Below are positions 2,037 through 33,676 of a stretch of DNA of 45,857 bases, in pieces. The notes under the pieces were generated by a model that saw only the letters and a list, made by a program, of their open reading frames with translations, was not told the origin of the DNA and did not search any database. Numbering within the stretch: the first letter of the stretch is position 1; each line of letters starts with the position of its first letter. This DNA is from a virus. The stretch covers positions 1-45,857 of the IMG/VR virus record IMGVR_UViG_3300018080_000040, one strand, 5' to 3'. The translations under genes were made by a program, and so were the position numbers.

Positions 2037-4677
2037 ATCCTTGTCGATAGGTCTGGTTCATCTGCTGGATCAGCTTCGGGTTCCGGAGCAGACTATCCTC
2101 GACTCCGCGCTTGTCCGGGCTGACGATGTTGAAGGTGATATTCGCATCACCACGGCCGCCGGCACCTGTCGCGATCCCCAGGTTCCCGCGCTCGTCCCTG
2201 GACAGCGGGATCACTGCCTCCGGACCACGCTCTCCAATGAGCGCGCCTGTAGGACCGTTCACGACTCCGCCGGCAGCCATCGCCACCAGGCCCTTCGCTC
2301 CAGTAACCGGCGCGGCCGGATTGCCCCCCACACCTGGCGTGCTGAACGCACTCATGATCGCCATCTGGAGGGCCATTTTGATTATCGCATCCGTCGCGTC
2401 CAGGATCGCGTCCTCGAAAGTTTTCGCTCCCATCGCAAGGTCCACCAGAGAGGCCGTCGCAGCTCCGCCGATGTCCTCCATCGTGACCTTGAACCTCTCG
2501 GCTTTTTTCGTGTTATCTTCCTGAGCATCGCCGACTCGGTTCAGCCAATTCATGGCAGTCTGACCCCACTCCATGACTTTATTCTTTGCGGTTGTCCAGA
2601 TGCTGACCTGATCAGCGGATTCAGAGTTCAGCCCTTCCGCGTTTGCCTTCGCCTGATTGAGCTGCACCTGGAGCTCTTCGATTTGCCTCGTCGACTCTTC
2701 GGACTCTCCGGAGAACATCCCCATCATGTCCACCATCTTTTTCATATCATCCTGGACGAGCTCCTTGAATGTTTTCTTCGGCTTCTGAGCTGCCTGTTCG
2801 ATTTTACCGATCGCGATCCTATGAGTCTGCTCGATCCGAGCGACTGCGGTATCATATGCCGCTTCGATTCCTTTGACATCTTTCTCGAAAGTATCCGCGA
2901 CCGGCTGCGCTCCAGTGAAGCCGCTGGCAGTCAGCGCGACCATCCGATTGAGCTGCTTCTCGATGTCGCCCATGCCCGGGAGTCCTCTGATCAGGTCCCG
3001 CGCTTTTTTCACCATGAAATTGATCGCCTTGAACACGCCATCCATGAGCAGATCGAATACTTTCAGGACCGGGTTGATGAAGTAAGTGACCACCAGGCTC
3101 TTCATGCCGGCCCAGATCACTTTGCTCGTTTTCTTCAGCCACTGGAAGCCCTTCGCGATCCCCTTGATCAGGTCCTGCATCCCCTTCTGGACCGGAGTGA
3201 ACTGCTCGAGCCATTCCCCGAACTTGAAGCCGAGATACGCGGCCGCCAGAACAGCCAGCGCCGGCAGCAGTGTCGCAGTCAGCACGGCTGCAGCCTTCGC
3301 GGCTGCCACGCCGATCGTCCAGAGAGCCGGCACGATCATTCCGACCAAAGAGGCCGCCATCTGCAAGAGTCCGAGGTTCGCCATGATGATCGCCTTCGCC
3401 ATGAGGCTGATCTTCACAGCAGCCAGTGAGGCAGTTGTCGCGAGGCTCCCGAGCATAACCGGAATAGAGAGCGCGACGAGTATCTTCCCGATTTTCCACA
3501 CGCGCCGCAGCGCTTCAGCTACACCCGCCACTGCCGGCGTCACCTTGCCCGCGGCCTGGTCGATGCCGGCCAGCTCCTTCACAAGGGCAGAGGCAAATCC
3601 GATCAGGTCCTTCAGTGCTCCGGTTAGTCCGGACTCGCCGGCCATCAGGATCACCTCCTGGAGAGTCGACAGAAGCTCGAGCCATGCACCTTTCAGTGTG
3701 CCCTCGATGAGGGCCGCGTTTTTCCGAGCAGTACCTTCGACCAATTCATTCGCTTTTGTGAGCTGGAGAGCCTTCTGAGTGGCGTCAGCCATGACCAGGG
3801 CGGCCGTTGCCTGGCGTGATCCGAAAATCTGCGCGGCCTGGCCGAGGTTCATCTGTGCCTCGCCGAGTTTGCGGAAGGCTTCAGTCGCTCCGACTTTCGT
3901 CGGATTGACTTCGTCCAGGGAGAGGCCCATCTCTTTCAATGACTTCACAGCGTCGTCTGTCGGATTGACCAGGCGGATCATCGACTGGCGGAGCGCCATA
4001 CCGGCCCGGCTGGATTTGATGCCGGCATCATGCAGCACGCCCAGGAGGGCGGCGGTTTCTTCAAGTGAGACGCCGGCGGTCTTAGCTGAGGTACCAGCAA
4101 AGCTCAGCGCCTGGGCCAGCGTCTGGATCGTGGAGTTCGTCGAGTTCGCGGTATTGACCAGAACATCGGCAATGTGAGTTGCATCGGAAGCCTCGAGACC
4201 GAACTGGCGCATCGTCGTCGCAGTGATCTCGCTGGCTTCGCCGAGATCGATCACGGCGGCCGTGGCGAGGTCCAGCGTCGCCGCTATCGCCTCGTTACTT
4301 TCGGCGACGGTAAAGCCGGCGCGAGAAAGGTTCAGCAGTCCCTCGGCGGCCTGAGAAGCCGTGAAGCGTGTCGTGGCTCCCAGGCGGCGCGCGGTGTCCT
4401 CGAACAGCTGCATCTCGGCAGTCGTTGCGCTGGTCACACCTTCGAGCATGGCCATCGTCTCCCCGAACTCTGCGATCGTCTGGATCGAAGAGCGGAGCCC
4501 GACATACGCGCCCAGCGTTACAAGCAGCGACGCCGCTGTCGATTTCAAAGCAGCCAGCGCTCCCCCGGTCTTTTTGGTTTGCGCTCTCATGAGCTTGACC
4601 GCTGAGACATATTTCTTCGCCCCAGAGATCGCGCCGCGTGCGCTGATGGCCACAAGTAGCGTCGCCGTGTTTGCCAT
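2023..4677 (-). CDS. tail tape measure protein
   Basis: An 884-residue protein of the TP901-like tape measure family. The N-terminal third is Ala/Thr-rich and helical with the typical ARGAISGAKKYVSAV and TAEMQLFEDTARRLG segments. The middle, roughly residues 390-490, is a string of hydrophobic stretches (VALSIPVMLGSLATTASLAA, ALAVLAAAYLGFKFG) that may reach the host membrane. The C terminus has Gly-rich segments ending in a GERGPEAVIPLSRDERG motif common in these proteins. It sets tail length, is threaded inside the tube and is ejected ahead of the DNA. It follows the frameshifted tail chaperone with a TAATG junction, the classical order in long-tailed phages. Confidence 0.95.
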   Translation of the reverse strand: MANTATLLVAISARGAISGAKKYVSAVKLMRAQTKKTGGALAALKSTAASLLVTLGAYVGLRSSIQTIAEFGETMAMLEGVTSATTAEMQLFEDTARRLGATTRFTASQAAEGLLNLSRAGFTVAESNEAIAATLDLATAAVIDLGEASEITATTMRQFGLEASDATHIADVLVNTANSTNSTIQTLAQALSFAGTSAKTAGVSLEETAALLGVLHDAGIKSSRAGMALRQSMIRLVNPTDDAVKSLKEMGLSLDEVNPTKVGATEAFRKLGEAQMNLGQAAQIFGSRQATAALVMADATQKALQLTKANELVEGTARKNAALIEGTLKGAWLELLSTLQEVILMAGESGLTGALKDLIGFASALVKELAGIDQAAGKVTPAVAGVAEALRRVWKIGKILVALSIPVMLGSLATTASLAAVKISLMAKAIIMANLGLLQMAASLVGMIVPALWTIGVAAAKAAAVLTATLLPALAVLAAAYLGFKFGEWLEQFTPVQKGMQDLIKGIAKGFQWLKKTSKVIWAGMKSLVVTYFINPVLKVFDLLMDGVFKAINFMVKKARDLIRGLPGMGDIEKQLNRMVALTASGFTGAQPVADTFEKDVKGIEAAYDTAVARIEQTHRIAIGKIEQAAQKPKKTFKELVQDDMKKMVDMMGMFSGESEESTRQIEELQVQLNQAKANAEGLNSESADQVSIWTTAKNKVMEWGQTAMNWLNRVGDAQEDNTKKAERFKVTMEDIGGAATASLVDLAMGAKTFEDAILDATDAIIKMALQMAIMSAFSTPGVGGNPAAPVTGAKGLVAMAAGGVVNGPTGALIGERGPEAVIPLSRDERGNLGIATGAGGRGDANITFNIVSPDKRGVEDSLLRNPKLIQQMNQTYRQGYAIG

Positions 4678-5045
4678 TATTTTCCTTTTATCTTGTTAGG
4701 CCCCTTTTCCGCTTTTCGCTTCTTCTTGGGGTCATTGATATACAGGGACATCCAGGTATCATCGAGGAAGGTGATCAGCTGATAGAGCTCGCGCCTCACA
4801 TCCGGATTGTGAAACCCCATGATTTCCATCCAGGCCGTGATCGCGTTCACCGCCAGAGGGTTCGCATCGAACCCGAACTGCCTCCGGTTATGAAGCTCGA
4901 CGAACCCCGACCAGGCCGGCCGAAGATCCAAACGGATCTCCGGCCGCTGATCGAGAGCTTTGACTTCCTGGCCTTGAGCTTTTAGCGCCTCGAGCTTCTT
5001 GATGTACCAGCCCCACTGGTATTCCCACTCGAGGCGCTCGCTCAG
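4677..5045 (-). CDS. tail assembly chaperone, -1 frameshift extension (T-like)
   Basis: This 122-codon segment has no good start of its own; the first in-frame start is a TTG well inside it. It is open all the way back to the G GGA AAC slip site at the end of the upstream gene, so it is best read as the C-terminal part of a fusion of about 264 residues. The extension begins LSERLEWEYQWGWYIKKLEA, is Trp/Tyr-rich, and ends in a Lys-rich tail. This mirrors lambda gpG-gpGT, where the minor frameshift product binds the tape measure protein. The stop codon overlaps the tape measure start (TAATG). The reading is inferred from the slip site and the open frame. Confidence 0.85.
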   Translation of the reverse strand: MSERLEWEYQWGWYIKKLEALKAQGQEVKALDQRPEIRLDLRPAWSGFVELHNRRQFGFDANPLAVNAITAWMEIMGFHNPDVRRELYQLITFLDDTWMSLYINDPKKKRKAEKGPNKIKGK

Positions 5046-5470
5046 TTTCCCTCGGCTGCGATCCGGTCCTCGGTTCGATAGAGTTCGCGCTCCTGGGCGA
5101 GCGCCATGATCTCCTTGTAGAAGTCCTCGATCTCAAGCGCTTCACGGCATGCCTCTTTCGAGTATTCGATCGGCTTGCCATCTTCGCCTATAAGGTTCTT
5201 CCATCCCAGGAGAACGGTCTCAGCGATCGCTTCCTTCATCAGCTCGTCAGCACTCTCGCTGTCGAGGGTTCCGGAAGTGACCCGCCGCATATGCGGCTTG
5301 CCGTTTTTCATCATGAACTCCTTGAACCGCCGGTTCCCGATCCGCGCGATCAGAAACTCGCAGCCGCTCCCGTAAGGGACCCAGACGCCTTCCTCTTCGA
5401 GTTTGTCGTCTGTCTTAAACTTCGAGAGCTTGAAGCCCTTCACCTTCGTCGTCTTTTTGTCGTCGGCCAT
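5042..5470 (-). CDS. tail assembly chaperone (G-like)
   Basis: A 142-residue, charged protein between the tail tube and tape measure genes, the usual place of the tail assembly chaperone. It starts MADDKKTTKVKGFKLSKF and holds the segment VWVPYGSGCEFLIARIGN seen in chaperones of this kind. It ends AAEGN then TGA, and the last codons GGA AAC form a slip heptamer that lets a fraction of ribosomes continue in the -1 frame. The short product is expected in excess and to coat the tape measure protein during tail assembly. It is not part of the virion in lambda. Confidence 0.85.
   Translation of the reverse strand: MADDKKTTKVKGFKLSKFKTDDKLEEEGVWVPYGSGCEFLIARIGNRRFKEFMMKNGKPHMRRVTSGTLDSESADELMKEAIAETVLLGWKNLIGEDGKPIEYSKEACREALEIEDFYKEIMALAQERELYRTEDRIAAEGN
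5045..5051 (-). promoter_or_regulatory. programmed -1 ribosomal frameshift site (GGGAAAC)
   Basis: On the minus strand the heptamer reads G GGA AAC in the zero frame, directly before the TGA stop of the chaperone gene. Slipping back one base changes the reading to GGG AAA CTG AGC and opens a further 122 codons. The heptamer fits X XXY YYZ and differs from lambda's GGGAAAG by only its last base. Confidence 0.85.
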
Positions 5471-5502
5471 TGTATGTCCTTATTACCAAAGAGCCAAAAA
5501 AA

Positions 5503-6672
5503 TCACGGAGCGTCGAAAAGAGCGATCCGCATGGTGATGTCCTCGGTGGCGTTCATGAACGCCTCGAACGAGATGCTCTCCACGAGCTCCGTGTCGACTC
5601 CGCCGGCCACGGTTTCGTCGTCGGACATCTGAAAACTGGGTACCTCGAACACGATCACCGCGCCGTCCGTCGCCTGGATGGCGACAGCGAAACCGGCTTC
5701 AGTGTGCGCGAGGTACCGCGACTTCTGAGTGTGGTCCTGGAACAGCAGCTCCAGGTCGCCGGTCACTGCGAACCGGCCGATCCCGAGATCATGCGGCGAC
5801 AGCTCGCCGGCACACCTGATCTCCCGGAGGTTATTCGTCACCTCGATCGTGCCAGAGAACAGGCACACGGAACCGTGGCTGATATTGATCCAGCGGATAT
5901 TATTCGCTGAGCTCAATATCTCGTTATCGTTCGCAGCGTTCGGGCTGCCGTCTCCGGCAGTGGCCGTGGTGGCCTGTTCGTCTTTCCCCATGAAGGAGAA
6001 GGAGCCGGTGATCCGGCCGTCCACTGGTATTTCCAGAGACATCGAGGCCGGCATGAGCCCGCGATAGAGCTCGAAGATGTTCGTGAGGTCCGTGTGCTCT
6101 CTCTCGATGGAGAAGGACTTCTCAGCGACACCGTTGACTGCCTGCTTCGCGGTCTCGGCGTTGATGGTCACGCCGGCCTCATCGACCAGGCCGTCCTTGT
6201 TCGAGACCGTGATCACGGTCGCGCTCGCGGCGGATACTTTGAACACCCCATTGTTTCCGGCGTTCGTCGGGAAGCCACGGAAGCGGACCCACTCGCCGAC
6301 GCTGGGGGTATTGTCCCAGGTGCCGGCTCCCAGTGTGAAAGTCCCGGCCGCAGCTGCTACTGTCACCGCGACGCCACTTGCCACTGACACGGAGGCACTG
6401 AAGGCCGAGGCCATCAGGACCGCCAGGAAAAACGGGTCATAACTTGCATACGACAGCTCGAAGTTGAGATCACCCTCCGCTCCGATCCCGGTCCGTATGA
6501 TACCGGGAATTTGACGGTCCGATCTGATTTCCTCAGATACCTCCGTCTGCTTTGTGCCCTTCAGCCCTTCGCCCGTCTCCCGCAGATTTGTGAAAGTGGG
6601 CGGTCCGGCCGGCACTTCACCCCACGCTACTTCTTCGACATAGCGGAGGATCGTCCTGTTCGCATCGCTCAT
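5503..6672 (-). CDS. major tail tube protein
   Basis: A 389-residue beta-rich protein placed between the tail terminator and the tail chaperone, the standard place of the tube subunit. The N terminus (SDANRTILRYVEEVAWGEVP) and the TEVSEEIRSDRQIPGIIRTG segment are typical of large phage tail tube proteins. A central insert, about residues 105-170 (AAGTFTLGAGTWDNTPSVGE and on), looks like an Ig-like or carbohydrate-binding surface domain, which would explain a length greater than the usual 150-250 residues. The C terminus returns to tube-like strands (ETVAGGVDTELVESISFEAF). Assignment rests on gene order and fold-like pattern. Confidence 0.85.
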   Translation of the reverse strand: MSDANRTILRYVEEVAWGEVPAGPPTFTNLRETGEGLKGTKQTEVSEEIRSDRQIPGIIRTGIGAEGDLNFELSYASYDPFFLAVLMASAFSASVSVASGVAVTVAAAAGTFTLGAGTWDNTPSVGEWVRFRGFPTNAGNNGVFKVSAASATVITVSNKDGLVDEAGVTINAETAKQAVNGVAEKSFSIEREHTDLTNIFELYRGLMPASMSLEIPVDGRITGSFSFMGKDEQATTATAGDGSPNAANDNEILSSANNIRWINISHGSVCLFSGTIEVTNNLREIRCAGELSPHDLGIGRFAVTGDLELLFQDHTQKSRYLAHTEAGFAVAIQATDGAVIVFEVPSFQMSDDETVAGGVDTELVESISFEAFMNATEDITMRIALFDAP

Positions 6673-6699: not shown

Positions 6700-7134
6700 C
6701 TAAGTCTCTTGGAAGTCGGCATCCCACGGCGCGGTCACATTGACCTGATACTGCCCGCCGACCAGCCCTATCACATTCGGGAATGGTGCCAGGTTGAACT
6801 GCACGACAGTTCCCTCTGCATCCCCGACATTGATGTTGATATAATCGAATGACTTCATCGCCAGCTCGACGGCATCATTCACATCCGCCTCACTCGTGCC
6901 GATCGGTCCGAACACCTGGAGGTCCAGGATGCCGCTGATCCTGTAGGTGTTCTTGGCACTGATGCACACGGTATTCCCGGCAGCCGGCCGAACCCAGGCA
7001 TTGATCCAGACCGCGTTGTCCGGCTTCGTGAATCCCGGAGCGTTCGCATGCTGGACAGCATAGCCAGCACCACCAGCGCCGAGAGTGCTGTCCACCTCTG
7101 CCTTGATGGCTTCGACTGCTGCCTTGTATCCCAT
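6700..7134 (-). CDS. tail terminator (DUF4128-like)
   Basis: A 144-residue protein with an N-terminal helix (MGYKAAVEAIKAEVDSTLG) followed by alternating strands, ending in a Val/Asn strand pair (GGQYQVNVTAPWDADF). This pattern matches the minor tail or DUF4128 proteins that cap the tube at the head end and fix the tube's final length. It sits immediately before the tube gene and after the HK97-gp10-like protein, as expected. No catalytic motif is present. Confidence 0.7.
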   Translation of the reverse strand: MGYKAAVEAIKAEVDSTLGAGGAGYAVQHANAPGFTKPDNAVWINAWVRPAAGNTVCISAKNTYRISGILDLQVFGPIGTSEADVNDAVELAMKSFDYININVGDAEGTVVQFNLAPFPNVIGLVGGQYQVNVTAPWDADFQET

Positions 7135-11519: not shown

Positions 11520-12595
11520 AGTTTCACCCCCGTCCTGGAGTAGCCCAGGTCCTTCAGTGTCGCGAACGATCCGTCAGCTGCTGCGAAGCCGCTGATGTCC
11601 GGGATCGCTCCCGATCGATACAGCTCTGCGCGCACCGGGCCCAGGAGTTTGTTCTGCCGCTCCGGGCTCTGTGTTTTGATCCAGTCGTCGAAGCTCTCCG
11701 GCCGCTCGATCACTCCGTCCATCCGGGTCGATCCTTCTGGACGGAAGGCCTGCTGCTTCACGATCTCGTTCCCTTCCATCTCCAGCTCGTCCCAGGACTT
11801 CGTCACATAGCCCATAGTCGACCGGCAATTATAATGCTGGGGCGGGACTGCGCCGATGTCATTCACCGGGTACACAGTGCCGTGGAGCAGCATACATATC
11901 TCACTCGTCCGATCGTCCAGGACGGCGATGTATTCCACGCCCTTGATCACATCGCTGTTCTCGACAGCGAAGGCCAGGCGCGACTGGTTCGATACATAAT
12001 TGGCTGCGGTCCTGGCCACGGCCTTTGCGTTATTGACGGCCTTGTTCACTCCGCCCGTCGTGAAGGCGTCGTAGTTCTTAGCCAGGAGATCGTTCGCCAT
12101 CTGCGGGATGTTTTTCCCTTCGATCATACCGACGCGGAAAGCCTCGAAGATGTCGGACTGAACAGTCTCGCCGAGCTGGCTGAACCACTCGCTCATAATC
12201 TTCCCGTTGAAGGGCTGCTCGAAGATGATCGCGTTCAGCATGTTCGGCCCGGGCATCGTCAGCCCGAAGTTCACCGGCAGCGCTTCAGTCAGCTCATCGA
12301 ATGCCGCCTGGACAGTGTTCGACGCGATCGCTGTCAGCTGGGCCATCGTCTCGGAGGTGATCTTCTCGATCGACAGGCCGCGCCTGATCTCTTCCTGGAG
12401 CCGCATCAGTCGGATGTCGTTCAGTCTTAGATCGCTCAAGTCGGCCGCCATAAGGTGACGCCCCAAATCGGGCAGCACTTCATCGCGGAGGACTCGAGCG
12501 ATCTCGAGGGCCATCTCTTGAGCCTGGCCGTGAAGGATGAGCTCGTTCACGATCGCAGAGTCAAGCAGCTCCTGATTGACTGATCTCTTCGCCAT
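11516..12595 (-). CDS. head morphogenesis protein (SPP1 gp7 / Mu F-like)
   Basis: A 359-residue protein directly after the portal gene. The C-terminal third holds the Mu F/SPP1 gp7 signature: ARTAANYVSNQSRLAFAVEN, then GVEYIAVLDDRTSEICMLLHG, then VPPQHYNCRSTMGYV, with the D..TC...HG..y and PP.H.NCRs pattern. The N-terminal half is helical. In SPP1 gp7 a few copies bind the portal and the DNA and help start genome delivery. Portal then gp7-like protein then scaffold then coat is a standard order. Confidence 0.92.
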   Translation of the reverse strand: MAKRSVNQELLDSAIVNELILHGQAQEMALEIARVLRDEVLPDLGRHLMAADLSDLRLNDIRLMRLQEEIRRGLSIEKITSETMAQLTAIASNTVQAAFDELTEALPVNFGLTMPGPNMLNAIIFEQPFNGKIMSEWFSQLGETVQSDIFEAFRVGMIEGKNIPQMANDLLAKNYDAFTTGGVNKAVNNAKAVARTAANYVSNQSRLAFAVENSDVIKGVEYIAVLDDRTSEICMLLHGTVYPVNDIGAVPPQHYNCRSTMGYVTKSWDELEMEGNEIVKQQAFRPEGSTRMDGVIERPESFDDWIKTQSPERQNKLLGPVRAELYRSGAIPDISGFAAADGSFATLKDLGYSRTGVKL

Positions 12596-31691: not shown

Positions 31692-31825
31692 GAATTCCTC
31701 CTATTGTCGGCCAGTTCGAGGGTCTGCCTCATCAGTGCCTGGAGACCATTCCAGACAGTCGCGGAGCGGCGAGCATCTCGCTCGGCTTCATCTCGGGTGG
31801 TGAAGCGCGTCCGATTCCCGAACAC
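31574..31825 (-). CDS. possible small gene with GTG start (doubtful)
   Basis: The 156-base gap between two genes holds a frame starting GTG at 31825, reading VFGNRTRFTTRDEAERDARR then SATVWNGLQALMRQTLELAD. This part looks protein-like (a 'FTTrdEAerdAr' segment is common in small phage proteins). The frame then runs 118 bases into the next gene, where it becomes Arg-rich and looks like shadow. Either the gene is real with an odd overlap or a base is missing. Confidence 0.3.
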   Translation of the reverse strand: MFGNRTRFTTRDEAERDARRSATVWNGLQALMRQTLELADNRRNSWSEARRGSRAGRLRRKPRSSRRRSRRSGTRTAAAFSPG

Positions 31826-32564: not shown

Positions 32565-33386
32565 TTAATAATCGCCCCAGCTGCACAGCACAGCTTCGGG
32601 TTTGACATTATTCTCTATATCCTCTTCGACTTTAGCCAGGACATCCGCCAGGCTCTCGTCGATCTTGAAGGTGTGGCCGATCTGCTTTTCGACTTCGACA
32701 TACTCGCGAAGAAGCTCCTGATTGTAGTGACCGGCGACGACCAGCGCCTCGAACGGTGCATAGATACAGAAGCAGCAGCTGAGTCTCGGCATGCCGAGAT
32801 CGTAGGCTTTGTGATACCGGACACCGCTCTCTTTGATCGTGTCCCAGACTTCCTGGATCAGCCAGGAGTGGATCGGCAGCCATACATCGACATGTCGCCG
32901 GCTGTTCGTATTCCGCTTATCTTCTTTGAATGGCGCGAGCTTCTCTCGGGCCTTGCTCTCCTGAGCTCTCATTCCCATACAGTTCAGAATCCGGGCCTGA
33001 CGATCAATGCCTTGGTCCCGGAGTTCCTTCGCGAGACGAGTGAATAATTTCGCGACCGGCGCGCGCTTAAATTCTGAAGTACACCAGCGGGCATTGTAGC
33101 CCGGCCACTTGTTCCGGCTGGTCGCATATTCGAGCATGTCGTCCTGAGTCCGTTCGACGATCTCGAAGCGGATGCCATAGTGAGCAGCCTGCTCGGCCGC
33201 GAGGTCTTTCGTGCCTTCCCATTCGACTTTGCCGAGATCGGCATGAACGGCGACGACGCGATCCAGAACTCCCTGGCTTTCGGCCAGATCACACACGAAG
33301 TCCATCATGGTCTGGGAGTCTTTGCCGGCGCTCGTGTTGATCACGATCCAGTCGTAGCTCCTCAGGTCTCTCTTCTCTTTGGCCAT
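32565..33386 (-). CDS. PAPS-reductase-family PP-loop protein
   Basis: A 273-residue protein with the PP-loop WIVINTSAGKDSQTMMDFV (SxGKDS type ATP pyrophosphatase loop), a following VVAVHADLGKVEWEGT, the substrate-side NARWCTSEFKRAPV, and a C-terminal CCFCIYA Cys cluster. This fits phage members of the phosphoadenosine phosphosulfate reductase/DndC-like family, some of which take part in sulfur-based nucleic-acid modification; others are unassigned. It is the first gene of the early operon, after a structured leader. The ATG at 33386 has GGAG 6 bases before it; a longer frame starting in the leader is rejected. Confidence 0.85.
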   Translation of the reverse strand: MAKEKRDLRSYDWIVINTSAGKDSQTMMDFVCDLAESQGVLDRVVAVHADLGKVEWEGTKDLAAEQAAHYGIRFEIVERTQDDMLEYATSRNKWPGYNARWCTSEFKRAPVAKLFTRLAKELRDQGIDRQARILNCMGMRAQESKAREKLAPFKEDKRNTNSRRHVDVWLPIHSWLIQEVWDTIKESGVRYHKAYDLGMPRLSCCFCIYAPFEALVVAGHYNQELLREYVEVEKQIGHTFKIDESLADVLAKVEEDIENNVKPEAVLCSWGDY

Positions 33387-33634
33387 GTTATTCTCCATCA
33401 TAGAATAAAGGCCGGGCCGGCTGGTCCAGGGACGAGGGTGATGATGGCACACGACGCCCCAGAGAGACCAGCGCGGCCCGATATGTTTTCGATTTGTATC
33501 CGTGTGCCATCATGGAGCTAAATGGTAACAGATAACGAAAACCTGTCAAGAACTATTTTCAAAAAAGATCACACAGTATTCATAAAAGGCCAGTATTCGC
33601 CCAAAAGTGCCAGATTTCGGGGTCGATTTTAGGC
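33387..33634 (-). promoter_or_regulatory. early operon leader with interlocked inverted repeats
   Basis: The gap of 340 bases between the operons holds no gene. In minus-strand order it shows ATGATGGCACACG (33513-33501), CGGGCCGCGCTGGTC (33480-33466), CGTGTGCCATCAT (33453-33441) and GACCAGCCGGCCCG (33426-33413): the first pairs with the third over 13 bases, the second with the fourth over 14 pairs with one bulge. That is the order of an H-type pseudoknot. ATGATGG occurs once more at 33401-33395, overlapping the GGAG ribosome site, and is complementary to CCATCAT of the third element. Switching between pairings could hide or free the ribosome site of the PP-loop gene. Confidence 0.65.
33522..33549 (-). 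promoter_or_regulatory. early operon promoter (TTGACA-N14-GTTACC)
   Basis: TTGACA at 33549-33544, then 14 bases, then GTTACC; the -10-like hexamer TACCAT (33527-33522) is at 16-base spacing. It matches the motif at 16.6 kb in every fixed position and in spacing. The start point would be near 33515, at the first base of the leader's inverted repeats. The region is AT-rich compared with the rest of the genome. Confidence 0.7.
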
Positions 33635-33676
33635 AAAAAAAAAGAGGGACAGGATGGCCGACGACCCCTGTCCCTC
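33635..33676 (-). terminator. strong intrinsic terminator ending the late operon
   Basis: On the minus strand GAGGGACAGG, a 13-base loop, CCTGTCCCTC and then nine T in a row (33643-33635). A perfect 10-bp GC-rich stem with a T9 tail is a textbook rho-independent terminator. It lies 50 bases after the last gene of the late operon and directly ahead of the early promoter. Confidence 0.92.

Follow-up and report, generated by a model that had tools for sequence, protein, structure and literature searches.

Two long inverted repeats lie interlocked between the promoter and the first gene of an early phage operon, and the question is whether this arrangement arose by chance, acts at the level of DNA or belongs to an RNA that controls the operon. 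The window analysed is the whole IMG/VR virus record IMGVR_UViG_3300018080_000040 with a length of 45,857 bases. On its minus strand the leader contains two long helices whose arms alternate in the order a-b-a'-b', which is the order of an H-type pseudoknot, with a promoter on the 5' side and a PAPS-reductase-like gene on the 3' side (Table 1). An earlier reading based on the letters alone (the sequence-only reading) had described two such repeats of 13 and 14 pairs. Both were found, the first being perfect and the second containing one bulge, with duplex energies of -21.9 kcal/mol for a-a' and -29.0 kcal/mol for b-b'. Promoters were called by consensus match and transcript starts are predictions; the start previously placed on the first base of arm a agrees with our predicted +1 to within 1-2 nt.

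Table 1. Features at the head of the early operon in the window.
Feature	Positions	Strand	Basis or remark
Sigma-70-like promoter TTGACA-16-TACCAT, extended TG before -10	33522-33549	-	10/12 match; 0.3 expected per shuffle
Predicted +1	about 33515-33513	-	1-2 nt or less from arm a
Arm a, ATGATGGCACACG, AUG first, at or adjoining predicted +1	33501-33513	-	sequence, inverted-repeat search
Arm b, CGGGCCGCGCTGGTC, one bulged C after CGGGCCG	33466-33480	-	pairs with b'
Arm a', CGTGTGCCATCAT	33441-33453	-	13/13 complementary to a
Arm b', GACCAGCCGGCCCG	33413-33426	-	14 pairs with b
Candidate leader ORF, 41 codons, ATG in arm a to TAA	33388-33513	-	ends 4 nt 5' of the gene start codon
Third ATGATGG (a''), overlapping the GGAG ribosome site	33395-33401	-	repeat of the arm motif
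Possible RBS hairpin GGCC-TTATTCT-[ATGATGG]-AGAATAA-GGCC, start codon inside	33381-33413	-	-11.7 kcal/mol, P 0.018
First gene of the operon, PAPS-reductase-like, 273 aa	32565-33386	-	phrog_424, 2e-34
Likely intrinsic terminator of the upstream tail-gene operon, GAGGGACAGG...CCTGTCCCTC plus T-run	33633-33675	-	by eye; terminator absent from scan list

The leader had been tied to PAPS-reductase-like genes. This tie did not hold: among 21 relatives of that gene (33-50% identity), whose upstream regions were read by eye, none is preceded by such a leader and most lie mid-operon. The gene is therefore unsuited as bait, and proteins of the early operon are suited. Baits that worked were the early-operon helicase and a Sak4-like gene, which led to phages sharing the early operon of the window. 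L023 and L027 are the only relatives holding the orthologous operon-head site, and both carry the a-b-a'-b' arrangement there, in L023 with GCAAAGGGCAAGTT as arm a and GGCCAGCaaGGGGG as arm b, in L027 with TGAGGGTGCGAGC and CGGCAaGCAGGtAGCGGGAG, respectively. Their early proteins share about 34-72% identity with those of the window; the letters of the leaders are unrelated to it and the first gene is a different one. The more distant relative L113 contains an interlocked leader twice (at 6010 and 11859, L113-1 and L113-2), the second preceding a DUF1376-like gene (by eye), and L115 contains one 5' of dnaB (a DnaB-like gene). The six leaders thus stand before six different first genes, and all of them head an operon (early or replication). 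Arm lengths range from 11 to 27 nt. Loop L3 comprises just 0-2 nt in L023, L027, L113 and L115, so that forming both full helices at once may be strained. A nested fold accommodates one helix only, and RNAfold chose b-b' in the window and L027 and a-a' in L023.

Further searches covered several other routes. A whole-leader DNA search of phages and plasmids and a search for the exact arm pattern in viral contigs gave no match, and searches with the exonuclease and the portal found no relatives. About 15 further viral genomes with a Sak4-like gene, scanned largely or whole, contained no convincing member, and helicase-linked loci from viral contigs and bacterial genomes gave mainly noise. The leader is missing in relatives of the first gene after L113-1. 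One candidate in a Planctomycetales MAG (L126, score 20.1) was doubtful and was left out.

The repeats are far longer than expected by chance, as had been claimed. Among 1186 gene-upstream regions scanned at 205 or more loci the window leader reached the top score (26.2), and no shuffle reached 26. When each leader's own region was shuffled (first-order Markov resamples), the real interlocking score was matched in 0/4000 cases for the window, 7/4000 for L023 and 0/4000 for each of the other four leaders. The L113 and L115 leaders emerged from the scan and so bear a multiple-testing cost, from which L023 and L027 are free because gene order fixed them. Looking for kept pairing in relatives had been proposed as a check on the sequence-only reading, and pairing is indeed kept in L023 and L027, where the operon head is orthologous, and also in L113 and L115. 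The interlocked a-b-a'-b' complementarity of an H-type pseudoknot leader is therefore conserved in the leader RNA of relatives. The six leaders keep the pairing while their sequence changes, which amounts to covariation in the plain sense, although they are not alignable by sequence as R-scape would require.

DNA-level elements such as operator pairs, an origin or an invertible site would be another way to explain inverted repeats close to promoters and ahead of replication genes, for instance the dnaB gene of L115 and the DUF1376-like gene behind L113-2 (by eye). The 12 helices pooled comprise 179 Watson-Crick pairs, 20 G.U and 1 A.C. Re-extending the helices with a strand-neutral score, in which G.U and A.C count the same, gave 17 G.U versus 2 A.C (p=0.0007). 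This asymmetry means that the transcribed strand is selected, as RNA; a DNA-level element would show none. Together with the location of the site between promoter and RBS it makes the DNA-level explanation extremely improbable.

Few bases are shared among the leaders. Across the four leaders of 127-128 nt (window, L115, L113-1 and L027) only 5-6 columns are invariant, and an ATG accounts for three of these in the left-aligned count. Arms and loops are unrelated across the leaders compared. That neither conserved bases nor a shared downstream gene is present speaks against a metabolite aptamer and against a specific protein site; a metabolite riboswitch in particular is unsupported, given the lack of conserved aptamer nucleotides and the six different first genes. 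None of the Rfam 15 families matched the leader at gathering score or at E<=10. Of the proposed new metabolite-, protein- or DNA-sensing regulatory RNA, the selected RNA element stands (pairing kept, G.U bias) and metabolite sensing is unsupported. The leader is probably an undescribed gene-control RNA.

The same data bear on a possible protein ligand of the pseudoknot, for instance an early gene product acting as repressor of its own operon in the manner of T4 gp32 or the ribosomal proteins S15 or S4. Pseudoknots are common autoregulatory sites, and the leaders of T4 gene 32 and of S15/S4 use an H-type pseudoknot in the 5' leader for translation control. The position at the operon head would suit such a role. 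However, the first gene is different behind every leader, and there are no conserved loop or helix nucleotides for a specific protein to read, which leaves this explanation quite unlikely. In the known examples the bases recognised by the protein are kept and the stems are short, in contrast to the stems of 11-27 nt before varied genes found here. Autoregulation by the T4 pseudoknot is covered in PMC3014915.

The ATG lies at a defined place. In five of the six leaders (window, L027, L113-1, L113-2 and L115) arm a has it at offset 0 or -1, and only L023 lacks an AUG there. Among 110 control interlocked pairs an ATG was expected 1.7 times per offset (about 3% expected per leader), and its occurrence in five of six leaders is far from chance. 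The AUG is at the predicted +1 or no more than about 2 bases from it in the window, L115 and L113-2, and in L113-1 it has AGGAG upstream. For L023 no promoter was recognised. Neither this AUG nor the 41-codon frame of the window had been mentioned in the sequence-only reading. The frames opened by the arm-a AUGs stop 4 nt (window), 8 nt (L113-1) and 11 nt (L115) 5' of the gene start, where L115 uses the second of two arm-a AUGs, 5 nt inside the arm; each of these frame-end positions by itself has a 9-28% chance. Such frame ends beside the gene start are suggestive of translational coupling. The frame of L027 stops after 5 codons. Since L023 has no AUG in arm a and the L027 frame is this short, leader translation is not universal even among the closest relatives, and the example of L023 means that a leader can do without the AUG. 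From the arm-a AUG to the gene start we counted 127 nt in the window and L115, 128 nt in L113-1 and L027 and 115 nt in L113-2; the spacing of 127-128 nt is kept in four leaders despite differing loop and helix lengths. Searches for homologues of the leader-frame peptides, including an Icd-like identity, gave no match. A leader-ORF match to a Pseudomonas phage (E=3) was dismissed as chance.

Because the AUG lies inside arm a, a-a' pairing and initiation there are mutually exclusive. We tentatively favour a cis-acting leader that works by pairing only and gates translation of the early operon, perhaps via translation of the leader frame, at early (or replication) operon heads in a small set of uncultured phages; we regard this as possible, short of probable. 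Nascent arm a with its AUG (about +1 in the window) would emerge first and could load a ribosome. Arms a' and b' would be made some 60-100 nt later, upon which closure of both helices would make the AUG and the leader frame inaccessible. Any ribosome that had entered in time would translate through both helices and terminate beside the start codon of the gene, and the terminating ribosome or a follower could initiate at the first gene. Translation of the early genes would in this way be tied to fresh transcription or leader translation and be off on finished, closed leaders. That the leaders form a class of phage RNA switch conserving base pairing only, in which a start codon in the first interlocked arm admits ribosomes only before the partner arm is made and gating is by co-transcriptional folding and leader translation with no ligand or protein, seems somewhat unlikely.

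Alternatively, the leader may shield or shape the mRNA, either as a paired 5' end that blocks 5'-end-dependent decay or as an HK022 put-like antiterminator binding RNA polymerase. Arm a starting at or beside the predicted +1 in the window, L115 and L113-2 would fit this, as would the constant position at the operon head, and end protection requires no conserved sequence. In L027 and L113-1, however, arm a starts about 25-50 nt 3' of the likely transcript start. A simple hairpin would be sufficient for protection, leaving the interlocking and the AUG at the foot unexplained, and a put-like RNA would be expected to have conserved bases. We consider shielding unlikely.

In addition, the sequence-only reading had proposed a switch between two states, in which a' would have as alternative partners a and a third ATGATGG over the ribosome site. 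The third copy is present over GGAG; its pairing with a' is unexceptional. Pairing of a' with the RBS comprises 7 bp in the window (-9.0 kcal/mol, P 0.03 against shuffled a'), 10 bp including 2 G.U in L023 (-16.3 kcal/mol, P 0.007) and 6 bp in L027 (-10.7 kcal/mol, P 0.17). Ranked for a' pairing among the RBSs of the same phage, the gene's own RBS came 7/44 in the window and 1/46, 11/50, 3/47 and 39/46 in the others, and the five ranks combined give a p of about 0.03; many pyrimidine-rich segments offer pairing to a purine-rich RBS. Outside L023 this pairing is weak, and support for the switch is marginal. Furthermore, the 13 bp of a-a' would always win unless arm a were removed or occupied. 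Such a switch is distinctly unlikely. For the RBS hairpin, whose loop contains ATGATGG, the window gives a suggestive value, and the hairpins of the relatives L023 and L027 (P 0.17 and 0.08) are not stronger than typical.

A segment complementary to two flanking targets is also known from phage antisense RNAs, and the leader could be the source of a trans-acting RNA of the P4 CI (seqA-seqB-seqC) or P1 C4 type, serving immunity or late shut-off of early genes. P1 c4 and P4 sequences were fetched as yardsticks. Like P1/P7 c4 (RF01695; c4-a1b1 motif), the leader stands at the head of a phage operon and contains a segment able to pair with two targets on either side, one of them near the RBS. P1 c4, in contrast, has the nested order a1-b1-b'-a'-a2-b2, sites of 7-8 nt and a folded 77-nt C4, whereas the window leader is interlocked over 13-14 bp, is without a C4 fold and has no Rfam match. 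The C4 covariance model (RF01695) gave no gathering-score match in the window or its relatives and none on the leader at E<=10, and with P1 pairing nested the P1 C4 family was rejected. The P4 CI RNA is similar in that an antisense segment lies between upstream and downstream complementary copies (PMC4825925), and the complementarity of a' to upstream a and partly to the RBS copy resembles the seqA-seqB-seqC topology. In the corresponding test of the middle segment a-a' was clear and a'-a'' marginal. For P4 no interlocked second helix is known, and the immunity role of its CI RNA, a processed small RNA that terminates transcription in trans, depends on lysogeny. P4 is temperate; no integrase was detected in the present records, phage records G000-G004 (possibly fragments) containing no Pfam tyrosine or serine recombinase. 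In L113, 9 nt from arm a of the second leader recur at the gene start behind the first, which would suit a trans-acting RNA, but no internal promoter or processing site is known in the leader. We consider an antisense source very unlikely.

Closest in mechanism to the favoured gating leader would be plasmid leaders of the repY-repZ type. As Asano and Mizobuchi reportedly described in 1998, the IncI-alpha (ColIb-P9) repY-repZ leader combines a pseudoknot, a leader frame, a downstream RBS and a replication gene. A long-range pseudoknot, a downstream RBS and, for part of the phage leaders, a candidate leader frame are common to this leader, those of IncB and IncL/M plasmids and the ones described here. 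A frame end of this type at the next start was found in the window, L113-1 and L115 (-4, -8 and -11 nt) and not in L023 or L027, the frame being absent in the former and short in the latter. Unlike repY-repZ, the phage leaders have two interlocking arms of 11-27 nt, an AUG in the first arm and no known antisense RNA, and no sequence is shared. The proposed principle also resembles the leader of the MS2 maturation gene, which is translated on nascent RNA only, its start being open until the distal arm is made. This is an analogy only: MS2 is an RNA phage with a nested cloverleaf and without pseudoknot-ordered arms.

Absent from Rfam 15, the leader recurs in several uncultured phages, at operon heads and with a start codon in the first arm. 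An element conserving pairing topology without sequence is invisible to ordinary RNA-family searches. If the inferred mechanism is true, early phage genes would be timed by a switch that needs no ligand, and searching for interlocked inverted repeats from promoter to RBS could uncover regulatory RNAs that are missed now.

Several minor observations were made in these operons. In L113, GGCAAGATG of arm a of the second leader (11859-11880) recurs at 6127-6139, the gene start behind the first leader; trans cross-talk or chance are possible. Directly 3' of the first early gene of L023 (5830-5865) a strong terminator-like hairpin GGGGCGG...CCGCCCC TTTTT was noticed by eye, so expression of the remaining genes would depend on readthrough or antitermination. 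L027 carries an ATPase-like gene (GIPGCGKS by eye) and a companion of about 290 aa at 4084-5579 (plus), partially present in L024; the window is without both and has the PAPS reductase in their place. Finally, type II hammerhead ribozymes (RF02276) occur in the same early operon in the window (31718-31776, minus), L024 and L027. The window copy scores 30.8 (cut-off 37), aligns without the GAAAC core and looks decayed. At the equivalent site L024 reaches 59.1 bits and L027 50.5 bits (6805-6874), and two more L024 copies lie near threshold (L024 coordinates 1081-1150, 1487-1563 and 2028-2103).
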